From: Bacteroidota bacterium
GTDB lineage: Bacteria; Bacteroidota; Ignavibacteria; Kryptoniales; JAKASW01
Direction of reading: 5' to 3'
Assembly: GCA_021812985.1 (NCBI GenBank)
Contig: JAKAMG010000028.1
Span: 1-39,566, forward strand
Length of the DNA: 39,566 bases
Part shown: one piece after another, positions 4,049 to 17,958 of the stretch
How the letters are laid out: every line of letters starts with the position of its first letter
Position numbering within the stretch: the first letter of the stretch is position 1
Translations under genes and position numbers: made by a program
Notes under the pieces: generated by a model
The model's input: only the letters and a program-made list of their open reading frames with translations
The model's database searches: none
Told to the model about the DNA's origin: nothing

Positions 4049-5008
4049 TCAGTACAAATCGAACCCCTTTGTCTGTCCGCTAAGGAGCTCCCCGGGACGC
4101 GTCTCCGCCCTGCGAGGGAGGAGTGAGGCAACCCTGTTCTGGACCATGATTGATAATTTTTTCGGTGTCGCCACGACTGCCCTCGAGGAGAATACGTCGT
4201 AGCCCCTGGCTTCAATCGTGTCCAGAATAGAAGCGTAAATTTTCGCGGCCGCCCTGATCGATGGGCGCCCTGATTTTGACAGGAGCTCTATCCCTCTTTC
4301 GGCATCCTTGTAATAACCCCTCGCCCTCTCAATCTCATATTTCATGAGACCTATGAAGTTCTCATTGATGTTGCCGTTCGCGATGTCGGCGCGCGTGACG
4401 CCAAACCGCCCCATGTCATCTTCGGGCAGGAATATTTTGCCATGCAACTGCCAGTCTTCGTTAATGTCGCGCAGAATGTTCGTGATCTGCATGGCTATCC
4501 CCAGGGACTCCGCATGCTGGAAAGCGGATCCGTCGCTGTACCCGATTATGTAAGTCATCATCACGCCGACAACGGACGCGACCTGGTAACAGAATTTGCG
4601 GAGCGAAATGAAATCGGGATAGGAGGCGGTCAGGAGGTCGGACTGGACCCCGTCGATCAGCTCGAGCGGAAGTCCAATCGGGATTCCTTTGTCCAGGGCC
4701 ACATTGACGAATGCGTTCATTATAGGGTTCTGTGACTCGCCGCTCTTGTAGGCGAACCTCAACTCTTCGCGCCAATGTTCGAGTTCCTGCACGATCTCAT
4801 CGGTGCTCCTTTGCCTTGGAGAGTCGCCGATGTTGTCTGTGTATCGGCAGAAACCGTATAGCGCGAAGACGTCACGCCTCAGGCGGGATGGCATTAAAAA
4901 GGTCGAAAGGTAGAAGCCTTTCGAGAAGGTCTTCGTCATCTCGCGTGACATCTTCAGCGACAGCTTCAAATGCTGTAGCCTGTCCGAATTCGGCGAAGCG
5001 TAACTCAT
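4049..5008 (-). CDS. crtB: Phytoene synthase
   Basis: A 319-residue trans-isoprenyl diphosphate synthase of the squalene/phytoene class, condensing two geranylgeranyl diphosphates to phytoene, the first committed step of C40 carotenoids. Both Mg-binding aspartate motifs are visible: DNIGD (58-62) and DINED (181-185), the latter in the NILRDINEDW context typical of CrtB. The start at 5008 was chosen because its ATG overlaps the crtI stop (ATGA) and is preceded by GAGGAGGA at a good distance; the upstream in-frame extension lies wholly inside crtI. Squalene and dehydrosqualene synthases share the motifs, but adjacent crtI, crtY and crtZ favour phytoene. No geranylgeranyl diphosphate synthase gene is present in the window. 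Confidence 0.94.
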   Translation of the reverse strand: MSYASPNSDRLQHLKLSLKMSREMTKTFSKGFYLSTFLMPSRLRRDVFALYGFCRYTDNIGDSPRQRSTDEIVQELEHWREELRFAYKSGESQNPIMNAFVNVALDKGIPIGLPLELIDGVQSDLLTASYPDFISLRKFCYQVASVVGVMMTYIIGYSDGSAFQHAESLGIAMQITNILRDINEDWQLHGKIFLPEDDMGRFGVTRADIANGNINENFIGLMKYEIERARGYYKDAERGIELLSKSGRPSIRAAAKIYASILDTIEARGYDVFSSRAVVATPKKLSIMVQNRVASLLPRRAETRPGELLSGQTKGFDLY

Positions 5009-6498
5009 TTCGTGTCCTCCTCTATCCTTTTCGCGGCCAATGAACCCGAAATAATCACCATCGGGATCCCATTGCCGGGTGTCGTGCTCGCGCCGGCGAA
5101 GTAGACGTTGCCGAGCGTCTTCGAACGATTCTGCGGCCTGAAGTAGGCCGACTGGAAAAATGAATGGCTCAGTCCGAACGCGGACCCCTTCCACAGGTTG
5201 TATTCGCTTGCCCAGTCGTTTGGCGTGAACGTCTTCTCGTAAACTATATGTTCCCTTATGTCCGTCATGCCGAGCCGCTCGGACATCTTGTCGAGTATCT
5301 TTTCTCTGAAGGCCGGCTCATCCCTTGTCCAGTCGACGTTATCGGTCTTGTGTGGAACAGGCACAAGGACGTATATCGAATCGCTCCCCTCAGGCGCCAG
5401 GGAGGGATCAGACCTGTTAGGAACGCAAACATAGAATGCCGGGTCGTCAGGAAGTACCCGACGTTCAAATATGTCGTCAAGATTGAACTTGTAGTCCGAG
5501 GAGAAAACGACGTTGTGGTGAAGAAGGTTGCTGTACTGTTTGTCCACACCGAGGTACATCATGTAGGCTGAGGAGGACGATTTAAGCTCGCCGTTCTGGG
5601 GAACGAGGTTCTTTTTTGGCGCTTCTCCGAGGAGCGTCTCGTAAGCGTAAGGGAGATCGGCGTTCACGAGGAACAGATCGAAGGTCTCGCTCTTTTCGCC
5701 GTTGATAGTAAGAGATGTCGCCTTGTCGCCATCCTTGTCGATCTTCGTGACTTCCGAGTTGTATCTGAACTTGACACCATACTCTTTCGCGACCTTTTCG
5801 AGGCTCTCGACGATTTTGTACATGCCTCCCATCGGGAAGTAAATACCCTCGCCACTTTCCATGTAGGTCACGACTCCGTAGACGGAGGGCGCCTCGAAGG
5901 GGGAAATGCCGAGGTACATTGTCTGAAAGCTGAAGAGCATTCTCAGGCGTTCATCTTGGAAATAGCTGCTGACTCTGCTGTAAAGCGATCCGAGCATCTT
6001 CAGCGATGCGAGGTAATAGAGCGACTTCGGATTTATGAAATCAGACAGCCTCCTGTAATTGCGGTCGACGAAGTTCGGTATGGTGAGCCTGTAGAGCTTA
6101 GAGAGATAGCTGAAGAAACTCAGGTATCTTTCGATTTCCGCCTCATTCTTCAGCTTGTCCCTAATTTCCTTTGTCATGAGGGCAATGTTCGTGCTCGAGT
6201 TGAATTCGGTGCCATCCGAATAGTAGACCCGATAACTCGGCTCGAGAAGCTTCAACTCCATGTAATCGTTCAGGTCCCTGTCCAGCTCCTTGAAGAGCTT
6301 CTTCATCGAACTCAGCATGAGGAGAAGCGTCGGCCCAGTGTCAAAAGTAAATCCCTGAGGGGTCGAAAGCCGGTTGACTCTGCCGCCGGGGGTGGCGTTC
6401 TTCTCGAGGACCGTCACGTCAAAACCTTTCTTGGCGAGAAGAGCCGCCGCCGAGAGGCCGGCGAGCCCCGCGCCTATTACCGCTACCTTCTTCTTCAT
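5005..6498 (-). CDS. crtI: Phytoene desaturase, CrtI family
   Basis: A 497-residue FAD-dependent desaturase. The N-terminal dinucleotide-binding motif ([10 protein letters not shown], residues 8-17) leads into [10 protein letters not shown], and the C-terminal FAD motif with [14 protein letters not shown] is the CrtI hallmark. In a pathway with crtB, a split lycopene cyclase and crtZ, the likely product is lycopene after four desaturations; the number of steps cannot be read from sequence. The start at 6498 overlaps the folE stop (ATGA) and fits the family N-terminus ([11 protein letters not shown]); the longer frame lies inside folE. The related CrtD, CrtN and CrtO enzymes are less likely in this context. 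Confidence 0.94.
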
Positions 6499-7157
6499 TG
6501 GTTTTGGCCCCTTAACGAGTTGAAAAACCGGGCCTGCATGTTCGGGTCGTGCTCGAACGCGCCGGTGAAATATGTCGTGGCCGTGGTCGAGTTCTGTTTC
6601 TCGACACCCCGCATCATCATGCACATGTGGGACGCGTCAGCGGCAACCGCGACTCCCTTGGGGTGAAGTGTCTCTTCGATAACGTCCGCGATTTGTTTCG
6701 TCAGCCTTTCCTGGACCTGAAGCCTCCTTGCCAGTGCGTCGACGGCGCGCGGTATCTTGCTGAGACCCACTATCTTACCGTCCGGAATGTAGGCCACGTG
6801 GACCTTCCCGAAGAAGGGGAGGAGGTGATGCTCGCATAGCGAGTAGAACTCGATGTCCTTAACCAGCACCATGCTGTCGAAGTCTTCCTCGAAGACCGCG
6901 GCCTTGAGAAGTTCCGCCGCGTCTGTCTCGTATCCGCTTGTGAGAAAGTTCCATGCCTTCGCCGCGCGTTGAGGAGTCTTAAGAAGCCCCTCGCGGTGCA
7001 CGTTCTCGCCCGCCTGTATAATGAGGTCACGGTAACTTGCCTTCGCGATCTCCAGCCCCGAGTCTGATTCCATCTCGTCCGCCGTGATTGTATCTGTAAT
7101 GAACGGCTTGTAACCGTTCACGTTGTTTCTCCCAAGTGAGATTGGGTAGGTGTTCAT
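6495..7157 (-). CDS. folE: GTP cyclohydrolase I
   Basis: A 220-residue FolE converting GTP to 7,8-dihydroneopterin triphosphate, the entry to pterins and tetrahydrofolate. Zn ligands are in place: Cys108 and His111 in CEHHLLPF, and Cys179 in SHMCMMMRG. The active-site region GLSKIPR (131-137) is intact. The ATG at 7157 follows an AAAGGG site and the crtYd stop by two bases; the longer frame overlaps crtYd and looks spurious. Having folE inside a carotenoid/photolyase operon is unusual for a housekeeping gene but matches known LitR/CarH light regulons, where folE is induced with photolyase. Supply of the methenyl-tetrahydrofolate antenna is one explanation (inference). Confidence 0.95.
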
Positions 7158-7450: not shown

Positions 7451-7767
7451 CACTTGCGTCCTTTCCTCTTTTCAGTCGCTTCCCAAACGAGTATCGAAGT
7501 TACGGGCACCGAGACGAAGAAGATTAACTCCTCTATCGGGAGCCCGGCGATTCGCAGACCTGTGACGTATTCCGGATTGAAGCCCCAGACATTTCCCCGC
7601 ACGGCAAAGACGTCCCAGACCGCGAAGACTGTCAGGACCAGGGCTGTGGAAAGTGCTATCGACTTGCGATGTTCCCTCAGCCCGAGCCGCCGGTCGTTCA
7701 TCTCTGCCAGGAAGGGAACGAGGATGAACATGTCAACCGCGAGGTATGTGAAGTGCCCGAAGCTCAT
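7450..7767 (-). CDS. crtYc: Lycopene cyclase subunit, CrtYc-like
   Basis: A 105-residue membrane protein with three hydrophobic segments and the conserved acidic motif Pro77-Ile-Glu79-Glu80-Leu-Ile-Phe-Phe, typical of the CrtYc/CarR half-domain. Together with crtYd it should cyclise lycopene ends to beta-ionone rings in the cytoplasmic membrane. Its ATG overlaps the stop of the upstream SDR gene (ATGA), and its stop overlaps the crtYd start by one base, so the two halves are probably made in equal amounts by coupled translation. It ends in a basic tail (EKRKGRK). Confidence 0.85.
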
Positions 7768-8699
7768 GCGTGTGTTTGTCCCCCCGCCGGAAATATGTGC
7801 GTGATTGCCTCGTCGAGTTTCGCGTGTGAAAATGAGTATCCTTCCTCCAGAAGCCTGGCAGGGGCCACTTTCTGGCTCGGGAGTATGGTCTCTTCAGCCA
7901 TCTTTCCCATGCCAATTCTAAGAAAGAGTCCTGGGACGTGAACTATGGTCTTCCTTCCCAGAGCCCTTCCTATTTCCGAGCAAATATCGTCCATTCTAGC
8001 TGGGGTGGGGGAGACGAGGTTGTAAACGCCGGACGATGTGGGGTTATGAATGAGAAAGGCGATTGCCCCAATTGTATCATGATAGTGTATCCATGGCACC
8101 CACTGATCGCCGGAGCCGAGGACCGTACCTATATGGAGATTGTACGGCATTGCCAACTTTGGGAGCGCCCCGCCGTCAGATGAGAAGACGACGCCTGTCC
8201 TTATTATCACCCTGCGAGCACCAAGCGACTCGACATCTTTTGTCGAGTCTTCCCATTGTCCTGCCACGTCCGCCAGGAACCCTTCTCCTGGACAGGAGGA
8301 TTCTTCCAGGCTCTCTTCTCCCCTCGAGCCGTAATAACCCACGGCTGATGCCTGCACCACGAGTCCCGGCCTTCGGACCATTGATGATATGATGCCTGAG
8401 ACAAGCCTTCCCGCCTCCAGCCTGCTTTCGAGTATGCGTTGGCGCTTGGCCTTTGTCCAGAGAGATGACCCGATATTTTCGCCGGCGAGGTTGACGATGG
8501 CGTCGACGCCGCTCAGTTCGTGGGCAAGCTCCGTCTTATTCCGCCCGGCCAAACCGAGCGCGCGAACTTCGTCGCCGAATACCTCCCGCGCGTGGTCGAC
8601 GCTTCTGGATAACACAATCACTTCGTCTCCTCTTCCGCTCAGGAGCCGTGTCAGCCCTTTCCCTATGTATCCGGTTGCGCCGAGTATTGCGATTTTCAT
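7764..8699 (-). CDS. TIGR01777-type NAD(P)-dependent epimerase/SDR
   Basis: A 311-residue extended short-chain dehydrogenase homologue. The N-terminal cofactor loop is MKIAILGATGYIGKG (GxxGxxG), followed by VNLAGENIG and SAVGYYGSRG, both typical of the TIGR01777 (YfcH/SDR39U1) family; the C-terminal part (about 255-290) carries the family's PxFxLRxxxG-like segment as VPGLFLRIGMG. The reaction is not known. It starts with an ATGA overlap on the regulator gene. The same family recurs beside LitR-type regulators and photolyases in other bacteria, so a light- or DNA-damage-linked role is likely but undefined. Confidence 0.85.
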   Translation of the reverse strand: MKIAILGATGYIGKGLTRLLSGRGDEVIVLSRSVDHAREVFGDEVRALGLAGRNKTELAHELSGVDAIVNLAGENIGSSLWTKAKRQRILESRLEAGRLVSGIISSMVRRPGLVVQASAVGYYGSRGEESLEESSCPGEGFLADVAGQWEDSTKDVESLGARRVIIRTGVVFSSDGGALPKLAMPYNLHIGTVLGSGDQWVPWIHYHDTIGAIAFLIHNPTSSGVYNLVSPTPARMDDICSEIGRALGRKTIVHVPGLFLRIGMGKMAEETILPSQKVAPARLLEEGYSFSHAKLDEAITHIFPAGGQTHA

Positions 8700-9589
8700 T
8701 TCACCGCCACCCTCTTCCTGCTTAGCATCTTCTCGTGAACCGAACGAATGTCGGAGATATCGTCGGAGAGGAGATCTCCTTTCAGCCGACCGCCGAATCG
8801 CGATTTCATCCTCGGACCGCCGATTATCGTGAACGCCCCTGCCTTCTTCGCCGCGGGGAGCACCTTGTTATTGATGCCGGCAATGAACGCCTCTTCGTCT
8901 TCAACTATATCCGCGCTAATCGCGAGAAGGTCGGGCTTCTTTGCTCGTACGAAAAGCACGAGATCGTCCGTTGGGATGTCTCTTCCGAGATGGTACACCT
9001 TCCAGCCTTCGGAAGTCAGAAAGCTGGCTATGCAAGTGATGGCGATGTCATGTATCTCGCTGTCGAAGCACGTCACTACGGCAGTTAGGCCGTTCGCTTC
9101 CTTAGTGTGAATCTCCAACTGGAAACTGATCAGCGCAGACTTTATAGCCTGCGTCGCCAGATGCTCTCCGTCCACCCCTAGCTTTCCCATTTCCCAGTCT
9201 ATCCCGATCTCGGTCAGTACTGGGAAGACGAGCTGGGTGTAGAGGAGTATTATGTCTGGCTGTGAGACGAGTCCCGCCCGAAGAAGCTTCTGAATCTCTG
9301 CGGTGTCCCCCTCAAGTGCCGCCGTCTTAAGTGAGGGGATGAGCACATCCACGAATCCTGCGCTGAGGTGGGCCTGCACGTCTTTCCTGTCGAACTCCGC
9401 GAGTGATAGGCCGGGAAGGTTCATCTGATTTTCGTGTATGAACCTTAGCACGCTTCTCACGGGGAATTTCCTGTGCCCCCCCTTCGTCCTGACGCATTCG
9501 ATGAAACCGCTGTCTGCCCATCTCTTGACGGTCGACTCGTTTACCGAAAGTATCTCTGCTAACTCTCTTGATGAATAGCTGTTTTTCAT
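8696..9589 (-). CDS. carH: MerR-type B12-dependent light-sensing repressor (CarH/LitR-like)
   Basis: A 297-residue regulator with three parts. A MerR-type winged helix (about 4-55) contains STVKRWADSG and GGHRKF. A helical bundle (about 80-165) carries the Trp132-x9-Glu142-His143 motif that caps the adenosyl group in CarH. A cobalamin-binding Rossmann domain (about 168-290) has Glu178-x-His180, where His180 is the expected lower cobalt ligand, then SADIVED and IIGGP. By family knowledge it binds DNA as a tetramer with adenosylcobalamin in the dark and is released by light. Residue 133, after the Trp, is Glu rather than the His of Thermus CarH. It is first in the operon and faces its own promoter with a tandem repeat, suggesting autoregulation. 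The symbol could equally be litR. Confidence 0.93.
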   Translation of the reverse strand: MKNSYSSRELAEILSVNESTVKRWADSGFIECVRTKGGHRKFPVRSVLRFIHENQMNLPGLSLAEFDRKDVQAHLSAGFVDVLIPSLKTAALEGDTAEIQKLLRAGLVSQPDIILLYTQLVFPVLTEIGIDWEMGKLGVDGEHLATQAIKSALISFQLEIHTKEANGLTAVVTCFDSEIHDIAITCIASFLTSEGWKVYHLGRDIPTDDLVLFVRAKKPDLLAISADIVEDEEAFIAGINNKVLPAAKKAGAFTIIGGPRMKSRFGGRLKGDLLSDDISDIRSVHEKMLSRKRVAVK

Positions 9590-9605
9590 TTTAGCCGTTA
9601 TTCCT

Positions 9606-9624
9606 GTTTTGCACGTTTTGCACG
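9606..9624 (-). promoter_or_regulatory. Tandem 9-bp direct repeat, candidate CarH operator
   Basis: Two perfect adjacent copies of GTTTTGCAC on the plus strand (9606-9614 and 9615-9623) read as CGTGCAAAA twice in the direction of the operon. They lie just downstream of the -10 box, where the first transcribed bases should be. Two weaker 9-base units (5/9 and 6/9 matches) continue in phase to the start codon. Direct repeats are the operator form used by tetrameric CarH of Thermus, although there the period is about 11 bp. Assignment to the regulator is inference. Confidence 0.6.
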
Positions 9625-9627
9625 ATT

Positions 9628-9656
9628 AATATAGCAGGGCGATGGGCCGTTGTCAA
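9628..9656 (-). promoter_or_regulatory. Sigma-70-type promoter of the carotenoid operon
   Basis: Read on the minus strand, TTGACA (9656-9651) is followed after exactly 17 bases by TATATT (9633-9628). This is a perfect -35 box and a 5/6 -10 box. Transcription would start near 9621, inside the tandem repeat, giving a leader of about 32 bases before the regulator ATG at 9589. A strong promoter with an overlapping repeat downstream fits a gene set held off by a repressor. Confidence 0.78.
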
Positions 9657-9868: not shown

Positions 9869-11341
9869 ATGATTACAGACAGAGCTAAGAAAGAGATAAG
9901 GGAAATCTTCGGAAGCCAGAATCTGCTTGATTCAATCGAGGACAGGATTTCCTATTCCTATGATGGCACGCCCCTGATAAGCGCCCCTCCGGACGCGGTG
10001 ATCATCCCGACTGATGTTGAACAGATCAGCAGGTTGATGAAGCTGGCAAACAATGAGAAGTTCGCCGTCGTCCCCCGCGGCTCCGGCAGCGGCCTGAGCG
10101 GAGGTTCCATCCCTTCGGAGAATTCCGTTGTTTTACTAATGAACAGGTGGGACAGGGTGGTCGAAATCGACAAGCGCAATCTGACTGCGTGGGTCGATCC
10201 CGGAGTTATAACGGGGAAGTTCCAGTCGCTTGTCGAATCGCAGGGGCTTTTTTATCCCCCCGACCCGGGGAGCTCGCAGATATGCACGCTCGGCGGTAAT
10301 GTCGCAGAGAACGCAGGTGGATTGCGGGGCCTTAAGTACGGCGTGACGAAGAACTATGTGCTCGGCTTCGAGGCGGTCCTCCCGAACGGCGACGTGATGC
10401 ACGTCGGTGGAAAAAACATGAAGGACGTGGCTGGATATAACCTAAAAGATGTAATGATCGGGTCGGAAGGTACGCTGGGCATATTCACGAGGATCCTGCT
10501 GAAGCTTATACCTCTTCCGAAGGGAAGCAGGACGCTGCTCGCATACTACGATTCCATGGCAGGTGCGGCGGAGACGGTTTCTTCAATCACCGCGGCGGGA
10601 ATAATGCCTTCGATGCTCGAGTTCCTTGACAACCCGACCATCAAAGCGGTGGAATCCTTTGCCCACCTCGGACTGGATACAACCACCGGGGCGATACTTT
10701 TGGTTGAACTCGACGGAGCGAGGTCTGCCGTGGAGGAAGATGCCGCCGCGATAGAGGCACTCTGCAAAAAGTCGGGCGCGGTCAGCGTGCGTGTGGCCGC
10801 TGACGAGAGCGAAGCGACAAGGCTGAAGTCCGCAAGGAAAACGGCCTTTGCCGCTCTAGCGAGGATACGCCCCACCACGATACTCGAAGACGCCACGGTG
10901 CCGCGCAGCGAACTCGCGCCGATGGTGGATTTCATAAACGAGTCGGCGAAGAGGCATGGGATAAGCATTGGCACTTTCGGCCACGCGGGAGACGGGAATC
11001 TCCATCCGACGGGACTTACCGATGAACGTGACAAGGAAGAGATAAAGAGAGTTGAAGCCGCCTTCGATGAGATATTCCGAAAGGCGGTCGACCTCGGAGG
11101 CACGATTACCGGCGAGCATGGCGTCGGCCTTGCGAAAAGAAAGTTCATGGAGGAGCTCTACGACACCCCTTTCATTAGGATGATGAGAACCACCAAGGAT
11201 ATGCTCGATCCCAACGGTGTGCTCAACCCCGGGAAAATAATTTCGGTGAGCCCGAGATGTGAGGGAGCTCTGCCGAAGAGCCGGGAGCAAATCGAAACAC
11301 TGACATCGCGCATGGGGAATCCGTCGGAGGCCTATTTTTGA
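9869..11341 (+). CDS. glcD: FAD-linked 2-hydroxyacid oxidase (GlcD family)
   Basis: A 490-residue flavoprotein of the GlcD/D-lactate dehydrogenase family. The FAD-binding domain (about 38-215) contains the phosphate-binding loop PRGSGSGLSGG (69-79) and the GGNVAENAGG stretch; the FAD-oxidase C-terminal domain (about 215-460) ends with GEHGVG (415-420) and DPNGVLNPGK. It would oxidise glycolate or D-lactate to the 2-oxoacid and pass electrons to the Fe-S partner encoded next. Its TGA overlaps the TTG start of glcF. No GlcE-like third subunit is present, so this is a two-subunit enzyme; glycolate versus lactate cannot be decided. The ATG has only a weak ribosome site (GAGCG). Confidence 0.9.
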   Translation: MITDRAKKEIREIFGSQNLLDSIEDRISYSYDGTPLISAPPDAVIIPTDVEQISRLMKLANNEKFAVVPRGSGSGLSGGSIPSENSVVLLMNRWDRVVEIDKRNLTAWVDPGVITGKFQSLVESQGLFYPPDPGSSQICTLGGNVAENAGGLRGLKYGVTKNYVLGFEAVLPNGDVMHVGGKNMKDVAGYNLKDVMIGSEGTLGIFTRILLKLIPLPKGSRTLLAYYDSMAGAAETVSSITAAGIMPSMLEFLDNPTIKAVESFAHLGLDTTTGAILLVELDGARSAVEEDAAAIEALCKKSGAVSVRVAADESEATRLKSARKTAFAALARIRPTTILEDATVPRSELAPMVDFINESAKRHGISIGTFGHAGDGNLHPTGLTDERDKEEIKRVEAAFDEIFRKAVDLGGTITGEHGVGLAKRKFMEELYDTPFIRMMRTTKDMLDPNGVLNPGKIISVSPRCEGALPKSREQIETLTSRMGNPSEAYF

Positions 11342-12603
11342 CACAGGAAATATCCGAGGAACTCCTCACTCAATGCATGCACTGCGGGCTGTGTCTCTCG
11401 GTCTGCCCCACATACGCTCTTACAGGGCTTGAAAGGAGTTCCCCCCGCGGCCGCATCCGGCTCATGAAAAACGCGATGGACGGGACAATCCCTTTCTCCG
11501 AAACATTCAAATACGAAATGGACTTCTGTCTCGACTGCCAGGCATGCCAGACGGCGTGTCCGGCCGGCGTGGAGTACGGAAAACTTGTCGAATCGGCGCG
11601 GGCCCTCATAGCCGCAAGGAAGACAGGAATTGACATCAAGCGCATCATACTCAGAAGACTCTTTGGCGGAAGAACCTGGTTCCGTCTCGCGGCTTCGCTC
11701 CTCAGATTTTATCAGAAGTCCGGACTGGAAAAGTTTCTCCTGAATTTGACGTCCGGGCTCAAGGGAGACTTTTTTGCCCGGGCCCGTCTCCTTCCAAGGC
11801 TTTCAGAGCGCTTCTCCATCGACTTCCTCCCCGAAAAGATCGAGGCAAGGGGGACGCCGCGCGGAAAGACTGCAGTCCTCACCGGATGTGTCATGGATGC
11901 GATGTTTGCCGACGCTAACGTGGACACGGTCGAAGTCCTCGTGAGAAACGGCTGGCAGGTCGCTGTCCCCCATGATCAGGTCTGCTGCGGTTCCGTCAGC
12001 GCTCATTCAGGCGACATGGAGCTCGCCAGGAAACTCGCCGTGAGGAACATGGACGTCTTCGAGAAGACCGGCGCGGAGTATTACGTAATCAATTCGGCAG
12101 GCTGCTCCGCGTTCATGAAGGAGTACAGAGAATTGTTCGCATCTGATCCCGTCTACTCTAAGAAGGCGGAGGAGTTCAGCTCAAAGGTGAAGGAGTTTTC
12201 TGAGTTTATTTCCGAGACGGGTTACATGAAACCTTCGGTGAAATTCGATGTGCCCGTCACGTATCACGAGCCGTGTCATCTCGTCCACACCCAGAAGATC
12301 AGCGGACAGCCGAGAAGCGTGGTGAAGGATCTGGCCGGTCAGAATTTCAGGGAGCTCGGCGAGGCGACTTGGTGCTGCGGCAGCGCTGGAATATATAACG
12401 TCACTCACGTGGAAGCGGCCGCTAGCCTGCTCGAAAGGAAGCTGGGAAACATCGAGAAGTCAGGGGCAAAGGTCGTCGTGACGGGCAACCCCGGCTGCAT
12501 CGCTCAGATCGCGGCCGGAGCCAGGAATGATGGGAAGGAAATTGAGGTGCTGCATCTCGCGACCGCCCTGAACAGGCTTTACAAGTCCGAGGAAGATGCA
12601 TGA
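11338..12603 (+). CDS. glcF: Fe-S subunit of glycolate/D-lactate oxidase (GlcF family)
   Basis: A 421-residue electron-transfer partner of the preceding flavoprotein. Two 4Fe-4S motifs lie at the N-terminus: Cys13-x2-Cys16-x2-Cys19-x3-Cys23-Pro and Cys64-x2-Cys67-x2-Cys70-x3-Cys74-Pro. Two cysteine-rich CCG domains follow, visible as VCCGSVSAHSG and TWCCGSAGIYN, which in heterodisulfide-reductase-like proteins bind further clusters. The start is TTG, chosen because GGAGG lies 7 bases ahead and the TTG overlaps the glcD stop (TTGA). Its own stop overlaps the rhomboid start. Location is likely the inner face of the membrane, feeding quinones (inference). Confidence 0.92.
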   Translation: MTQEISEELLTQCMHCGLCLSVCPTYALTGLERSSPRGRIRLMKNAMDGTIPFSETFKYEMDFCLDCQACQTACPAGVEYGKLVESARALIAARKTGIDIKRIILRRLFGGRTWFRLAASLLRFYQKSGLEKFLLNLTSGLKGDFFARARLLPRLSERFSIDFLPEKIEARGTPRGKTAVLTGCVMDAMFADANVDTVEVLVRNGWQVAVPHDQVCCGSVSAHSGDMELARKLAVRNMDVFEKTGAEYYVINSAGCSAFMKEYRELFASDPVYSKKAEEFSSKVKEFSEFISETGYMKPSVKFDVPVTYHEPCHLVHTQKISGQPRSVVKDLAGQNFRELGEATWCCGSAGIYNVTHVEAAASLLERKLGNIEKSGAKVVVTGNPGCIAQIAAGARNDGKEIEVLHLATALNRLYKSEEDA

Positions 12604-13599: not shown

Positions 13600-16500
13600 A
13601 TGAAGGTTCTTTACGTCGAAGACAGCCAGGCCGACATTAGCCTGGTGAGGCATGAGCTGCTCAAGAGCGGAAATGACTTTGACCTTGATTCAGCGGGGAC
13701 CGTCCACGAAGCGTTGAAGAAGATTAAGGCGGACGCGACCTACGACGTTGCGCTCGTAGACCTGCGCCTCCCGGACGGTGACGGCATCTCCATTCTTAAT
13801 GAGATAAGACAGAAAAAGCTTCCCATCGCGGTCGTCATGATCACGGGCTTTGGCGACGAAGATGTGGCTGTCGGAGCGTTGAAGGCAGGGGCCGATGACT
13901 ATGTCGTGAAGTCAGGAAAGCACTACAAGGAACTCCCATCGATTCTGAGACGGAACGCGGATGAAAGGGAGAGAAGACGCTCATTCGGCACGTCGATACG
14001 CGTGCTGTTCGTGGGTGGCAAAGGGCCCGAAGTTGAGTCCGCCTTCGAACATCTATCGCGCAAGTCCCCCCATATCAAGATCAAGACGGCTCTTTCTAAG
14101 TCTGATTTCCTTTCTAAGATCGCCGGCACGGACGTACCATACGATGTCTTTCTGATCGAACAGGGGACGAAGGAGATAAACGTACTCGACACGATTAAGG
14201 AGCTGAGAAATTCTCAGGCTGCCGGCATACCTGTGGTAGTACTTGCCGACTCCGGTACACAGGAGAAAGCAGCCCTGGCCATGAAAGTCGGTGCCAGCGA
14301 TTACGTGGTTAAGTCGGAACATTTCCAGATCAAGCTTGCTTCTGTTCTGGAGAGCGCGCTCCAGAGGGCTCGCCTCGAAAGGGAGCGCGCCGCCCTCAAG
14401 GAGAGTGAAGAAAGGCACAGGATGATCTCCGGCCTGATTTCAGACTATGCCTACGTCTTCAAGGTTGACCCGGAGGGTAAGATTGACGGCGAGTGGCTGT
14501 CGGATTCTTTCCAGCATAGGTTCGGGTACACTCTGACCGAGGTCCGTGAGCGCGGCGGGTGGCAGGCATTAGTTCACCCCGATGATCTGCCAATCATCAT
14601 GGAACATGTGCGGAAAGTGGTTTCGGGAGACATCGATACGGCCGAATTCCGTTTCGTGACCCGCTCCGGTGAGTCCCGTTGGCTGCGTGATTCCGCGAGC
14701 CCGGTGTGGGGTTTCGCGCACAAAAGAGTCGTCAGGATTTATGGCGCGTCACAGGACATTACCGACAGGAAAGTTGCCGACGACGAGGTAAGACGAAGCG
14801 AGGCGAGATTCAAGGAACTTTCCGATTTCCTCCCCGAGCCTGTGTTCGAAACGGACAGGGACCGCAAAATTGTCTTCGCCAACCGCGCTTTCACGGAACT
14901 CTTCGGAGTTGAATCCATCCGGTTAAACACCGGTCTGGACCTTCTGGACTTCTTTTCGAAGGAAGACCGCGAAAGGGCGGCTGAACGGCTGGATCGGGTT
15001 CTGGAGGGAAAAGATCTGGAGCCCGAACGATTCGACGTCAAGGCCGCGAGCGGCGCTGACGTACCGGTCCTTCTCTCCGTCAGCCCGATTATTCATGAAT
15101 CGGAAGTCGTCGGCGTGAGAGGTGTCCTGACCGATCTCACGGAGATTACCGCTGCCCATGAGGCGGCCGCGGCCGGCGAGAACAAGTACAGGTTCATATT
15201 TGAGAGCTCCGCAGATGAGTTCTATCTCCTTGATGAACGCGGAATATTCCTGCAGGTGAACGAGGCCGGCTGCGAAAGGCTTGGATTCGCAAGGGAGGAA
15301 ATGATTGGCCAGAGCCTGAATATGATTCTGTCCCCGGAACATAAAATAAAGACTGAAGAGCGCGTCAAGGAAATCCTGCTCAGGAAGGACGTTACCTTCG
15401 AATCGGTGCATGTTAGGAAAGACGGCACACAGATACCGGTGGAGGTTCGCAGCCGCGCCGCTCTGTTCGACGGGAAGCCGGTTCTCCTGTCGGTTGCGCG
15501 CGATCTGACGGAGCGCAAGAAGGCCGAAGACGCCATCGCGCGTCGAAACAGACAACTTAGAATTCTCTCGGCCGCATCGATGAAAGTGAACGCCTTACTG
15601 AACGCCGACGAAATCCTCCGTACGCTTGTGATGTCCGGCATCGAATTGATCGGCGCAAAAGCAGGCACTGTCGGGCTCATAGAGAACGGTGTCCTTACAT
15701 TCAAGGAGTATTGTGAAGAGGGCAAGTTCAGGGAAATCAATGCGGCCTTCTCTCCAGGCGAGGGGATTCCCGGTGAGGTATGGCTTTCGAAGCACCCGAA
15801 GATAGTCGTCGACTGCGAAACATCCGACTCGCCTGCTGTGATGGGACGCGGTGAGTCTGGCGTGTATAATCTGGTGGATGTGCCCATCCTTAACAGGACG
15901 GGTGAAGTGCTCGGTGTATTCGCCGTGCACAACAGTGAAGGGAAGAGGCCTTTCAGCGAAGAGGATGTGGAAATGCTCGAGAGCCTCGCCTCCAGCGCGG
16001 CAGTCGCGCTCGAAAACGCGAAGCTCATTGCCGATATCACCAGGGCGGATGCCGCCATTCGCGAGAGCGAGGAAAAATTCCGCACCCTCGTCGAGTCTTC
16101 ACTCGTCGGCGTGTACATAGTCCAGGACGACAGGTTCGTCTACGCTAATCCCGCGATGGCCAAAATCTACGGCTATACTCCCGAAGAATTTCTCGCCATC
16201 GAATCGGTTCGCGAAACAGTGGCTCCTGATGATCGCGAGAGGGTGGATGGATACATCAGGCAAAGGATATACGGCGAAATCCCGTCCGTGAAATATGATT
16301 ACAACGCGATCAGGAAGGACGGCTCGATCGTTAGGGTCGAAGCGCTCGGCTCGAAGACGATTTACGCGGGATGGCCCGCAATTATCGGAACCGCGGAAGA
16401 CGTGACCCAGAGGAAAATTGCCGAAGAAATGCTGCGGCGATCGGAAGAGAGATACCGGCACCTCTTCGAGGATTCGCTCGATACCATCTATGTTACGACG

Positions 16501-17958
16501 CCTTCCGGAAAATTCATCGACATCAACACTGCGGGGGTCACGCTTCTCGGCTATGACTCAAAGGAAGAGCTTCTCAGCCTCGAAAGTGTAAGCGAACTCT
16601 ATGAGGATCCCGGAGAAAGAGAAAGCGCGAAAGCGCTTCTGGAGAAACATGGCTTCATCAAGGATAACCCGATCACGCTGAAGAGGAAAGACGGAGGGCG
16701 CATAATCGTCCACGACTCTTCTACGGTTATACGCGACGCTGACGGCAAAATCGCGGCGTACCGCGGCATACTTAAGGATGTTACAGAGAAGAAGATGCTC
16801 GAGGAGCAGCTACTTCAGTCTCAGAAACTCGAAAGCCTGGGGCAGTTGACTAGCGGCATAGCTCATGATTTCAACAACGTGCTCGGCGGAATTATCGGCT
16901 TCGCCGAACTCGCCCTCGGCAAGGTTTCCGACGACCATCCTGTGAACAGCTATCTGACGCGGATATACGGACTTGCTGACAGGGCCGCGAAAATCACTAA
17001 GCAGCTCCTGGCTTTTTCCCGTAGGCAGATTCTCATGCCGAGAGACGTGGACCTGAACTCCCTTATAGAAGAGATGCTCGAGCTGCTTCGCCGCCTCCTG
17101 GGGGAAAGAATCCAGATAAGGTTCGCGCCGGGGAGGAGTCTGAGTACAGTAAAGGTTGATCCGTCCCAGTTCGAACAGGTCCTTTTGAATCTTGCAGTCA
17201 ACGCGGGCGATGCGATGAAACAGGTAGGCACTCTGACTATCGAAACCGCAAACGTATTTCTAGACGAGGCGTACTGCAGGAAACATGCGGGAGTCAAACC
17301 GGGCGAGTACGTGATGACATCGGTAAGCGACACGGGGATGGGGATTGAACCTTCCGTCATGGAGCGGATTTTCGAACCCTTCTTCACCACGAAGGAAATT
17401 GGAAAAGGGACCGGACTTGGTCTCTCCGTCGTCCACGGGATCGTGAGACAGCATGGTGGAACGATAAACGTTTACAGCGAGGTAGGAAAGGGGAGCACGT
17501 TCACGGTTTATTTCCCCGCTTTGAAAGGAGTGGCCGTTTCTCCGGCGGATCAGCAAAACGAAGTCAGAGAATTGGAAGGGGGAACTGAAACCATCCTTCT
17601 GGTCGAAGACAACGATGAAATGCGGGAGTTCATGAGTACTCTCCTGATCGAGAACGGATATGAGGTCCTTGCGGCACACGAAGGCGAGGAGGGGGTGAGG
17701 ATCTTCGAACAAAACGCTTCGAAGATCGCGCTCGTCATCACGGACATTGTAATGCCGAAGATGACGGGGAGGGAACTCAGAGATGCCATACGGGCGAAAT
17801 TTTCACACAGCAAATTTCTTTTCATAAGTGGCTACGCCGACAGCGTTGTCCATCACGGATTTATACTCGACGAAAAGGTTGATTTTCTGCAGAAGCCATT
17901 CAACGCGTTCGACTTCACACGCAGGGCAAGAGAAATCATAGACAGACGAAATCCCTAA
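13600..17958 (+). CDS. Hybrid sensor histidine kinase, REC-REC-PAS3-GAF-PAS2-HK-REC
   Basis: A 1452-residue soluble multi-sensor kinase with no membrane segment. Order of domains: receiver 1 (1-120; Asp54, Thr82, Lys104); receiver 2 (about 132-252), degenerate, with Glu187 at the phospho-acceptor position but Lys238 kept; PAS domains at about 266-395, 399-520 and 526-645; GAF (about 655-808); PAS at about 818-940 and 947-1060; HisKA with phospho-His1089 in GIAHDFNN; HATPase with DTGMGI and GKGTGLGLS; and a C-terminal receiver with Asp1382 in VITDIVMPKMTG. The N-terminal receiver suggests it is itself the target of another kinase. No output regulator is adjacent. The ATG has a weak site (AAGAG); no better start is seen. 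Confidence 0.93.
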   Translation: MKVLYVEDSQADISLVRHELLKSGNDFDLDSAGTVHEALKKIKADATYDVALVDLRLPDGDGISILNEIRQKKLPIAVVMITGFGDEDVAVGALKAGADDYVVKSGKHYKELPSILRRNADERERRRSFGTSIRVLFVGGKGPEVESAFEHLSRKSPHIKIKTALSKSDFLSKIAGTDVPYDVFLIEQGTKEINVLDTIKELRNSQAAGIPVVVLADSGTQEKAALAMKVGASDYVVKSEHFQIKLASVLESALQRARLERERAALKESEERHRMISGLISDYAYVFKVDPEGKIDGEWLSDSFQHRFGYTLTEVRERGGWQALVHPDDLPIIMEHVRKVVSGDIDTAEFRFVTRSGESRWLRDSASPVWGFAHKRVVRIYGASQDITDRKVADDEVRRSEARFKELSDFLPEPVFETDRDRKIVFANRAFTELFGVESIRLNTGLDLLDFFSKEDRERAAERLDRVLEGKDLEPERFDVKAASGADVPVLLSVSPIIHESEVVGVRGVLTDLTEITAAHEAAAAGENKYRFIFESSADEFYLLDERGIFLQVNEAGCERLGFAREEMIGQSLNMILSPEHKIKTEERVKEILLRKDVTFESVHVRKDGTQIPVEVRSRAALFDGKPVLLSVARDLTERKKAEDAIARRNRQLRILSAASMKVNALLNADEILRTLVMSGIELIGAKAGTVGLIENGVLTFKEYCEEGKFREINAAFSPGEGIPGEVWLSKHPKIVVDCETSDSPAVMGRGESGVYNLVDVPILNRTGEVLGVFAVHNSEGKRPFSEEDVEMLESLASSAAVALENAKLIADITRADAAIRESEEKFRTLVESSLVGVYIVQDDRFVYANPAMAKIYGYTPEEFLAIESVRETVAPDDRERVDGYIRQRIYGEIPSVKYDYNAIRKDGSIVRVEALGSKTIYAGWPAIIGTAEDVTQRKIAEEMLRRSEERYRHLFEDSLDTIYVTTPSGKFIDINTAGVTLLGYDSKEELLSLESVSELYEDPGERESAKALLEKHGFIKDNPITLKRKDGGRIIVHDSSTVIRDADGKIAAYRGILKDVTEKKMLEEQLLQSQKLESLGQLTSGIAHDFNNVLGGIIGFAELALGKVSDDHPVNSYLTRIYGLADRAAKITKQLLAFSRRQILMPRDVDLNSLIEEMLELLRRLLGERIQIRFAPGRSLSTVKVDPSQFEQVLLNLAVNAGDAMKQVGTLTIETANVFLDEAYCRKHAGVKPGEYVMTSVSDTGMGIEPSVMERIFEPFFTTKEIGKGTGLGLSVVHGIVRQHGGTINVYSEVGKGSTFTVYFPALKGVAVSPADQQNEVRELEGGTETILLVEDNDEMREFMSTLLIENGYEVLAAHEGEEGVRIFEQNASKIALVITDIVMPKMTGRELRDAIRAKFSHSKFLFISGYADSVVHHGFILDEKVDFLQKPFNAFDFTRRAREIIDRRNP

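Follow-up and report, generated by a model that had tools for sequence, protein, structure and literature searches.

A perfect tandem of two 9-bp units just downstream of the -10 box of a carotenoid operon is most likely the operator of the adjacent CarH-like B12 photoreceptor, which would coat the transcription start in the dark and be released from it by light. The repeat lies in contig JAKAMG010000028.1 of a Bacteroidota bacterium, of which we analyzed a stretch of 39,566 nucleotides, here called the window. The repeat, its period, its placement, its conservation, its regulon, and the domain types and conserved contact residues of the protein were all observed, and the comparative evidence strongly supports the view that the repeat is very probably the operator of this regulator. 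The initial annotation had proposed a new type of CarH operator at this site. Although no footprint data exist, the proposal is supported by the conservation of the repeat, by its occurrence in nine families, and by its presence in carotenoid and ECF-sigma promoters.

The tandem consists of two copies of CGTGCAAAA, giving CGTGCAAAACGTGCAAAA at positions 9607 to 9624 of the minus strand, and an exact copy was seen only once in the window. When up to 3 mismatches were allowed, 0.01 matches were expected per shuffled window, against the one perfect match observed. Across the 3.5 Mb of the genome, no exact or one-mismatch copy of the tandem was seen outside 9607-9624. The promoter in front of it matches the sigma-70 consensus at 11 of 12 bases (TTGACA-17-TATATT). 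Its -35 element, TTGACA (9651-9656, minus strand), is invariant in 7 of 7 sequences of the genus, and its -10 element, TATATT (9628-9633, minus strand), was placed after a 17-nt spacer by promoter inspection and the genus alignment. The predicted operator unit 1 (9616-9624, minus strand) begins 3 nt past the -10 box and is followed by the predicted unit 2 (9607-9615, minus strand), a perfect copy; both are conserved. Two weak predicted units continue in phase on the same strand: unit 3, CAGGAATAA (9598-9606), matches at 5/9 and contains AGGA, which is ribosome-binding-like, and unit 4, CGGCTAAAA (9589-9597), matches at 6/9 and ends in the A of the ATG. The initial annotation had described both the exact pair just past the -10 box and the two weaker units (5/9 and 6/9) reaching the ATG, and these were confirmed, while its span of 9606-9624 included one base too many, 9606. 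A chance tandem duplication was ruled out by the shuffled-window expectation and by the test on held-out homologues described below.

The carH-like gene (8696-9589, minus strand) is the first of a run of carotenoid genes on the same strand. Its product of 297 amino acids has an N-terminal winged helix of the BldC type (residues 1 to 55), a flexible linker, and two B12-binding domains (B12-binding_2 and B12-binding). The run continues, all on the minus strand, with an NAD-dependent epimerase/DUF1731 protein as operon gene 2 (7764-8699), two lycopene cyclase halves (PF18916; 7450-7767 and 7160-7453), GTP cyclohydrolase I (folE, 6495-7157), a phytoene desaturase-like amine oxidase family protein (crtI, 5005-6498), and phytoene synthase (crtB, 4049-5194). 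On the plus strand, the divergent side (9869-12603) carries an FAD-linked oxidase gene (GlcD-like by Pfam) and then an Fe-S-type frame (judged GlcF-like by eye); this side has its own weak promoter-like site and no 9-bp array. Farther on (13600-17958, plus strand), a frame of 1452 residues resembles by its sequence a multi-PAS hybrid histidine kinase with receiver domains.

Within the genus, six full-length orthologues with 71-75% protein identity kept both units, as CGTGCAAAnCGTGCAAw between the -10 box and the start codon. Unlike the repeat, the -35/-10 spacer and the DNA upstream have diverged, and conservation continues past the repeat to AATAACG. In two further members of the genus, carH is damaged: in G006, roughly residues 32-155 are missing and a single repeat unit is left, and G001 has lost the DNA-binding domain and has one unit mutated. 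Decay of the repeat alongside a broken carH points the expected way, but two cases remain an anecdote. The two genus loci in which carH is broken by internal deletions, L008 and L039, retain the operon promoter with one unit lost or mutated, and in L039 the next gene of the operon is still open.

To look beyond the genus, we gathered homologues by protein similarity alone, blind to their upstream DNA. The held-out set comprised 72 homologues outside the window's family, and the 18-mer of the window was compared with the 120 nt upstream of each gene, with 4881 other windows from the same loci as background. The initial annotation had called for a search for the tandem upstream of orthologous genes, and the search found it: 33 of the 72 held-out regions matched the 18-mer at 13/18 or better (0.16 expected), and 23 of them at 14/18 or better (0.03 expected). 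The matches are spread over nine families and extend to homologues of about 28-34% protein identity, although related genomes are not independent and many genomes in the comparison are metagenome assembled. Examples of such distant matches, in homologues of about 30% identity, are CGTGCAAAACGCTCAAAT (L007), CGTGCAAAACGTGCTTTT (L011), and CGTACAAAACGTACAAAACGTGCAAAT (L073). In L007 (1501-2367), the tblastn match to the carH homologue has an in-frame TGA and TAG near its end; the C terminus is thus different or damaged, while the operator is intact. No such repeat was found within 120 nt of carH for the BldC-type homologues of families f26, f28, f38, f45, and f51, and in family f13 many carH genes come after crtI without a promoter of their own. 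Since several homologues of other branches have no repeat near carH, BldC-type B12 proteins do not all share this grammar.

We then analyzed the layout of the array with a test that uses no motif, in which the self-similarity of 77 upstream regions was measured at periods 6 to 15. At period 9, 19 regions reached a self-match of at least 12/14 (1.1 expected), while periods 6-8 and 10-15, including the classical 11, stayed at the background level in these 77 regions. Alignment on units 1 and 2 gave the consensus unit C-G-T-n-C-A-w-A-w, and a typical array has 3 to 4 units in phase. In unit 3, which was not used in the selection, 89% of the family-weighted sequences have C1 and 79-85% have A6/A8. 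Together, the unselected units 3 and 4 score far higher in phase than in any shifted register, with a weaker signal for unit 4 than for unit 3. Transcription starts were inferred from the -10 boxes. The gap from the -10 box to unit 1 was 4.6 +/- 1.7 nt, and the distance from unit 1 to the start codon was 37 +/- 8 nt. The tight distance to the -10 box and the loose distance to the start codon indicated that the array is tied to the promoter. The 9-bp period and the site just past the -10 box, both claimed in the initial annotation, are general and not peculiar to the genome of the window.

The same measurements bear on whether the repeat acts in RNA, as a 5' untranslated region element or an extended ribosome-binding region, rather than as a DNA operator. 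Such a role would account for the position of the repeat between the transcription start and the ATG, for the AGGA it includes, and for the conservation up to AATAACG. It is hardly compatible, however, with an array whose distance to the -10 box varies little and whose distance to the start codon varies widely, or with arrays that also precede unrelated genes. In genus g6, moreover, the repeat pair lies upstream of the carH -35 element, outside the transcript, and the divergent promoter has four units right after its -10 box (CGCTCGTAA CGATTATAT CGCTCATAA CGCTTATTC in L012). On the spacing and the g6 case, we rejected the RNA element as highly improbable. The divergent four-unit promoter of g6 was seen upstream of carH in L012, L015, L016, and L137; the divergent reading frame is short and unidentified.

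An operator of the classical kind was also sought. Classical CarH operators are tandem 11-bp direct repeats, nnnnTnnACAn (PMC9304148), and the window does contain two TTAAC copies 11 bp apart (TTAACG/TTAACA) near a TTGACA that fits TnnACA, so that the true operator could lie at the -35 element and the 9-bp tandem be incidental. But the distance from TTAACA to TTGACA is 16 bp, which is out of phase, the TTAAC copies are absent from the orthologues, and period 11 did not rise above background when all homologues were considered. No conserved array of classical 11-bp repeats was thus present at the -35 element, and we give this explanation very little credence compared with a 9-bp operator past the -10 box.

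To predict the regulon, a sequence-only model of the -10 box plus units was run on 46 genomes. In the genome of the window, the carH promoter was the single match (E 1e-8), and matches precede carH in most of the carH-bearing genomes among the 46. Away from promoters that serve carH alone, the model matched in front of SRPBCC-crtB, on a contig other than that of carH (L142), and in front of crtI followed by carH (L187). In five genomes of family f13 (L182, L183, L184, L185, and L188), an ECF sigma factor gene has a promoter with a -10 box plus 9-bp repeats. Regulators of the LitR/CarH type control carotenoid genes either on their own or by way of an ECF sigma factor, and LitR/LitS of Streptomyces is reportedly an example of a light regulator acting with an ECF sigma factor. 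The f13 promoters suggest a light-triggered sigma cascade. Lack of conservation in relatives had been named in the initial annotation as a result that would refute the operator; instead, the repeat was conserved in the genus, in the held-out families, and at other carotenoid and ECF-sigma promoters.

The carH-less control genomes gave no model match better than E 0.06. A generic sequence following -10 boxes was ruled out, since the model had one match across the genome of the window and none that was convincing in carH-less relatives. Raw one-mismatch pattern matches in 245 genomes were no more numerous than those of a reversed-pattern control, and they were informative only by their position beside carH or crt genes. 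Weak model matches by an aminopeptidase-like gene (L186, L189, and L193) lay past gene ends and were set aside. A similar tandem was seen upstream of DUF4397 lipoprotein-like genes (L143, L144, and L190), which are not known to be light regulated; the one in L190 was also preceded by a match of the sequence model.

We then compared the DNA-binding domain with known proteins. In a sequence search with this domain alone, CtMerR (1.5e-12) and BldC (1.5e-5) were matched, and Thermus thermophilus CarH was unmatched at E≤1. BldC (6amk) was also the best structural match of the predicted domain by VIA-align (Z 9.6, rmsd 1.0 over 51 residues, 31% identity), against Z 6.7 for TtCarH. The domain has no long MerR dimerization helix and is followed by a low-confidence linker. 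Residues R23, W24, G37, H39, and R40, which correspond to BldC R30, W31, G44, H46, and R47, are invariant in the proteins compared here. BldC protomers bind arrays of two to four 9-bp direct repeats in a head-to-tail arrangement, one protomer per repeat, with Arg30 reading a YpG step and the wing residue His46 in the AT-rich groove (PMC5859096). The unit in the window likewise has a YpG step at positions 1-2 and an AT-rich part at positions 7-9. On the matching (YpG) strand, the BldC whiI-opt unit is TGTCCGAAT against CGTGCAAAA here (PMC5859096), and the natural BldC smeA site, GTGCAAATG, shares GTGCAAA with the window unit. The register of these sequences was matched post hoc, and the match lends support without amounting to proof.

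The likeness to BldC of Streptomyces thus covers the winged-helix fold, the contact residues, and 9-bp direct repeats in variable number, the last resting for the window on DNA-level evidence only. The unusual spacing follows from a DNA-binding domain of the BldC type instead of the classical MerR/CarH type. The initial annotation had read the 9-bp period as a different spacing of DNA-binding domains; this needs refining, since the protein does not place a classical CarH domain on an odd spacing. The protein nevertheless differs from BldC. BldC sites lie upstream of or within promoters, whereas the window array lies over the transcription start. The Arg22-Glu16 salt bridge of BldC is missing from the window protein, which has Ser15 and Glu9 at these positions, so the head-to-tail contact may differ, and the score for the BldC family NF033787 was 43.5 against a cutoff of 77. 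BldC lacks an effector domain and does not sense light, and the window protein, with its 297 amino acids and two B12 domains, is accordingly not a BldC.

It could still be argued that the repeat serves a regulator other than the adjacent B12 protein, such as a small BldC-like protein encoded at an unlinked locus. In favor of this are the likeness of the unit to BldC sites, the abundance of small proteins of the BldC or excisionase type, and a few comparable tandems close to genes that are not known to be light regulated (the DUF4397 lipoproteins of L143 and L190). We consider this unlikely. The motif fronts carH in nine families and recurs at crt and ECF-sigma promoters in genomes that carry carH; relatives without carH lack it, and it decays where carH is broken. 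In addition, the kind of domain that one would expect for repeats of 9 bp, a BldC-type domain, is found in the adjacent protein itself.

Over both domains, the best solved match of the window protein, the proposed owner of the operator, was CtMerR of Chloracidobacterium thermophilum (PDB 8JBS); for the B12 domain, T. thermophilus CarH came next. The light-sensing motif of CarH, Wx9EH (PMC8156234), is met by W132-x9-E142-H143, and with the axial histidine H180 it is invariant in ten homologues. In the ExHx2Gx41SxV/Tx22-27GG motif, E178, H180, S225, and GG257-258 are present, with G replaced by A and V/T by D. Because of this imperfect B12 motif (ExHxxA, SxD), the use of AdoCbl is not certain; CtMerR, a proven B12 photoreceptor, likewise has HEIA. 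The protein shares with CarH/LitR of T. thermophilus and Bacillus megaterium the two-domain B12 architecture, Wx9EH, the axial histidine, the carotenoid cluster, and direct repeats over the promoter. Unlike CarH/LitR, it has a DNA-binding domain closer to BldC, and its repeats have a period of 9 bp instead of 11 and lie after the -10 box, not on the -35 element. Two tested CarH features failed: there was no 11-bp operator (period 11 at background, and no in-phase TnnACA array in the window), and the score for the NCBIfam CarH equivalog NF052513 was 59.3 bits against a cutoff of 400. The protein was therefore not filed as a classical CarH. By its sensing part and its role, it is inferred to work like CarH, with binding that would depend on AdoCbl and light.

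CtMerR binds AdoCbl, responds to green light, and forms a tetramer, and its operator is unknown, its authors proposing only an alternative DNA site (PMC11796333). It has the same type of DNA-binding domain as the window protein and probably belongs to the same branch, and the window repeat is a candidate for the missing operator type of CtMerR. We place the window protein in a branch of B12 photoreceptors that is marked by a BldC-type domain and an operator grammar of its own.

How this regulator acts on the promoter is inferred, as there are no binding, footprint, transcription-start, or light-response data; the inference extends to binding, stoichiometry, the dependence on light and AdoCbl, and the exact step that is blocked. 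AdoCbl in the dark assembles CarH (PMC8156234) and CtMerR (PMC11796333) into oligomers, which light breaks. In the dark, the winged helices of AdoCbl-bound oligomers would line up head to tail along the array, occupying its two strong units and one or two weak ones, from just past the -10 box to the start codon. R23, the BldC-equivalent arginine, would read the YpG step that opens each unit, and H39 of the wing would sit in its AT-rich end. The oligomer may cover about -3 to +33, over the transcription start, and would prevent open-complex formation by RNA polymerase or its departure from that complex, leaving carH and the carotenoid operon off. The initial annotation had inferred a block of promoter clearance; whether the polymerase would be hindered at binding, melting, or escape is not discriminated by the data. 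Light would break the Co-C bond, the oligomer would disassemble, and the operon would be transcribed. Since the carH-like gene is first in the operon, the circuit would be autorepressed. One point against this model is that the perfect tandem of the window contributes just two strong units, whereas a tetramer could occupy more.

The protein might instead bind the repeat and activate, or repress without any control by light, as some MerR-type proteins activate and the B12 motif is imperfect here. We think this quite improbable, as a site over the start and an optimal 17-nt spacer suit repression and the light-sensing residues are invariant. For light-controlled repression, we lean toward a widespread, separate branch of B12 photoreceptors with a BldC-type domain and an operator of 9-bp steps over the start, on which three to four protomers would form a light-dissociable filament and repress at a stage that follows recognition of the -10 box, instead of occluding the -35 element.

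The CarH operators in the open literature that we examined are all 11-bp repeats, and neither a 9-bp CarH operator nor a BldC domain with B12 binding was found in open-access literature (subscription papers were not covered). CtMerR is the only structure among the BldC-type B12 photoreceptors, and the operator of this branch had been unknown. The results provide a sequence-defined, testable operator for the branch, and a compact 36-bp light-controlled operator is offered for engineering. They also connect two modes of DNA binding that have been studied separately, the tetramers of CarH and the head-to-tail filaments of BldC. The motif can further be used to predict genes under light control in many uncultured Bacteroidota, carotenoid genes and ECF sigma factors among them.
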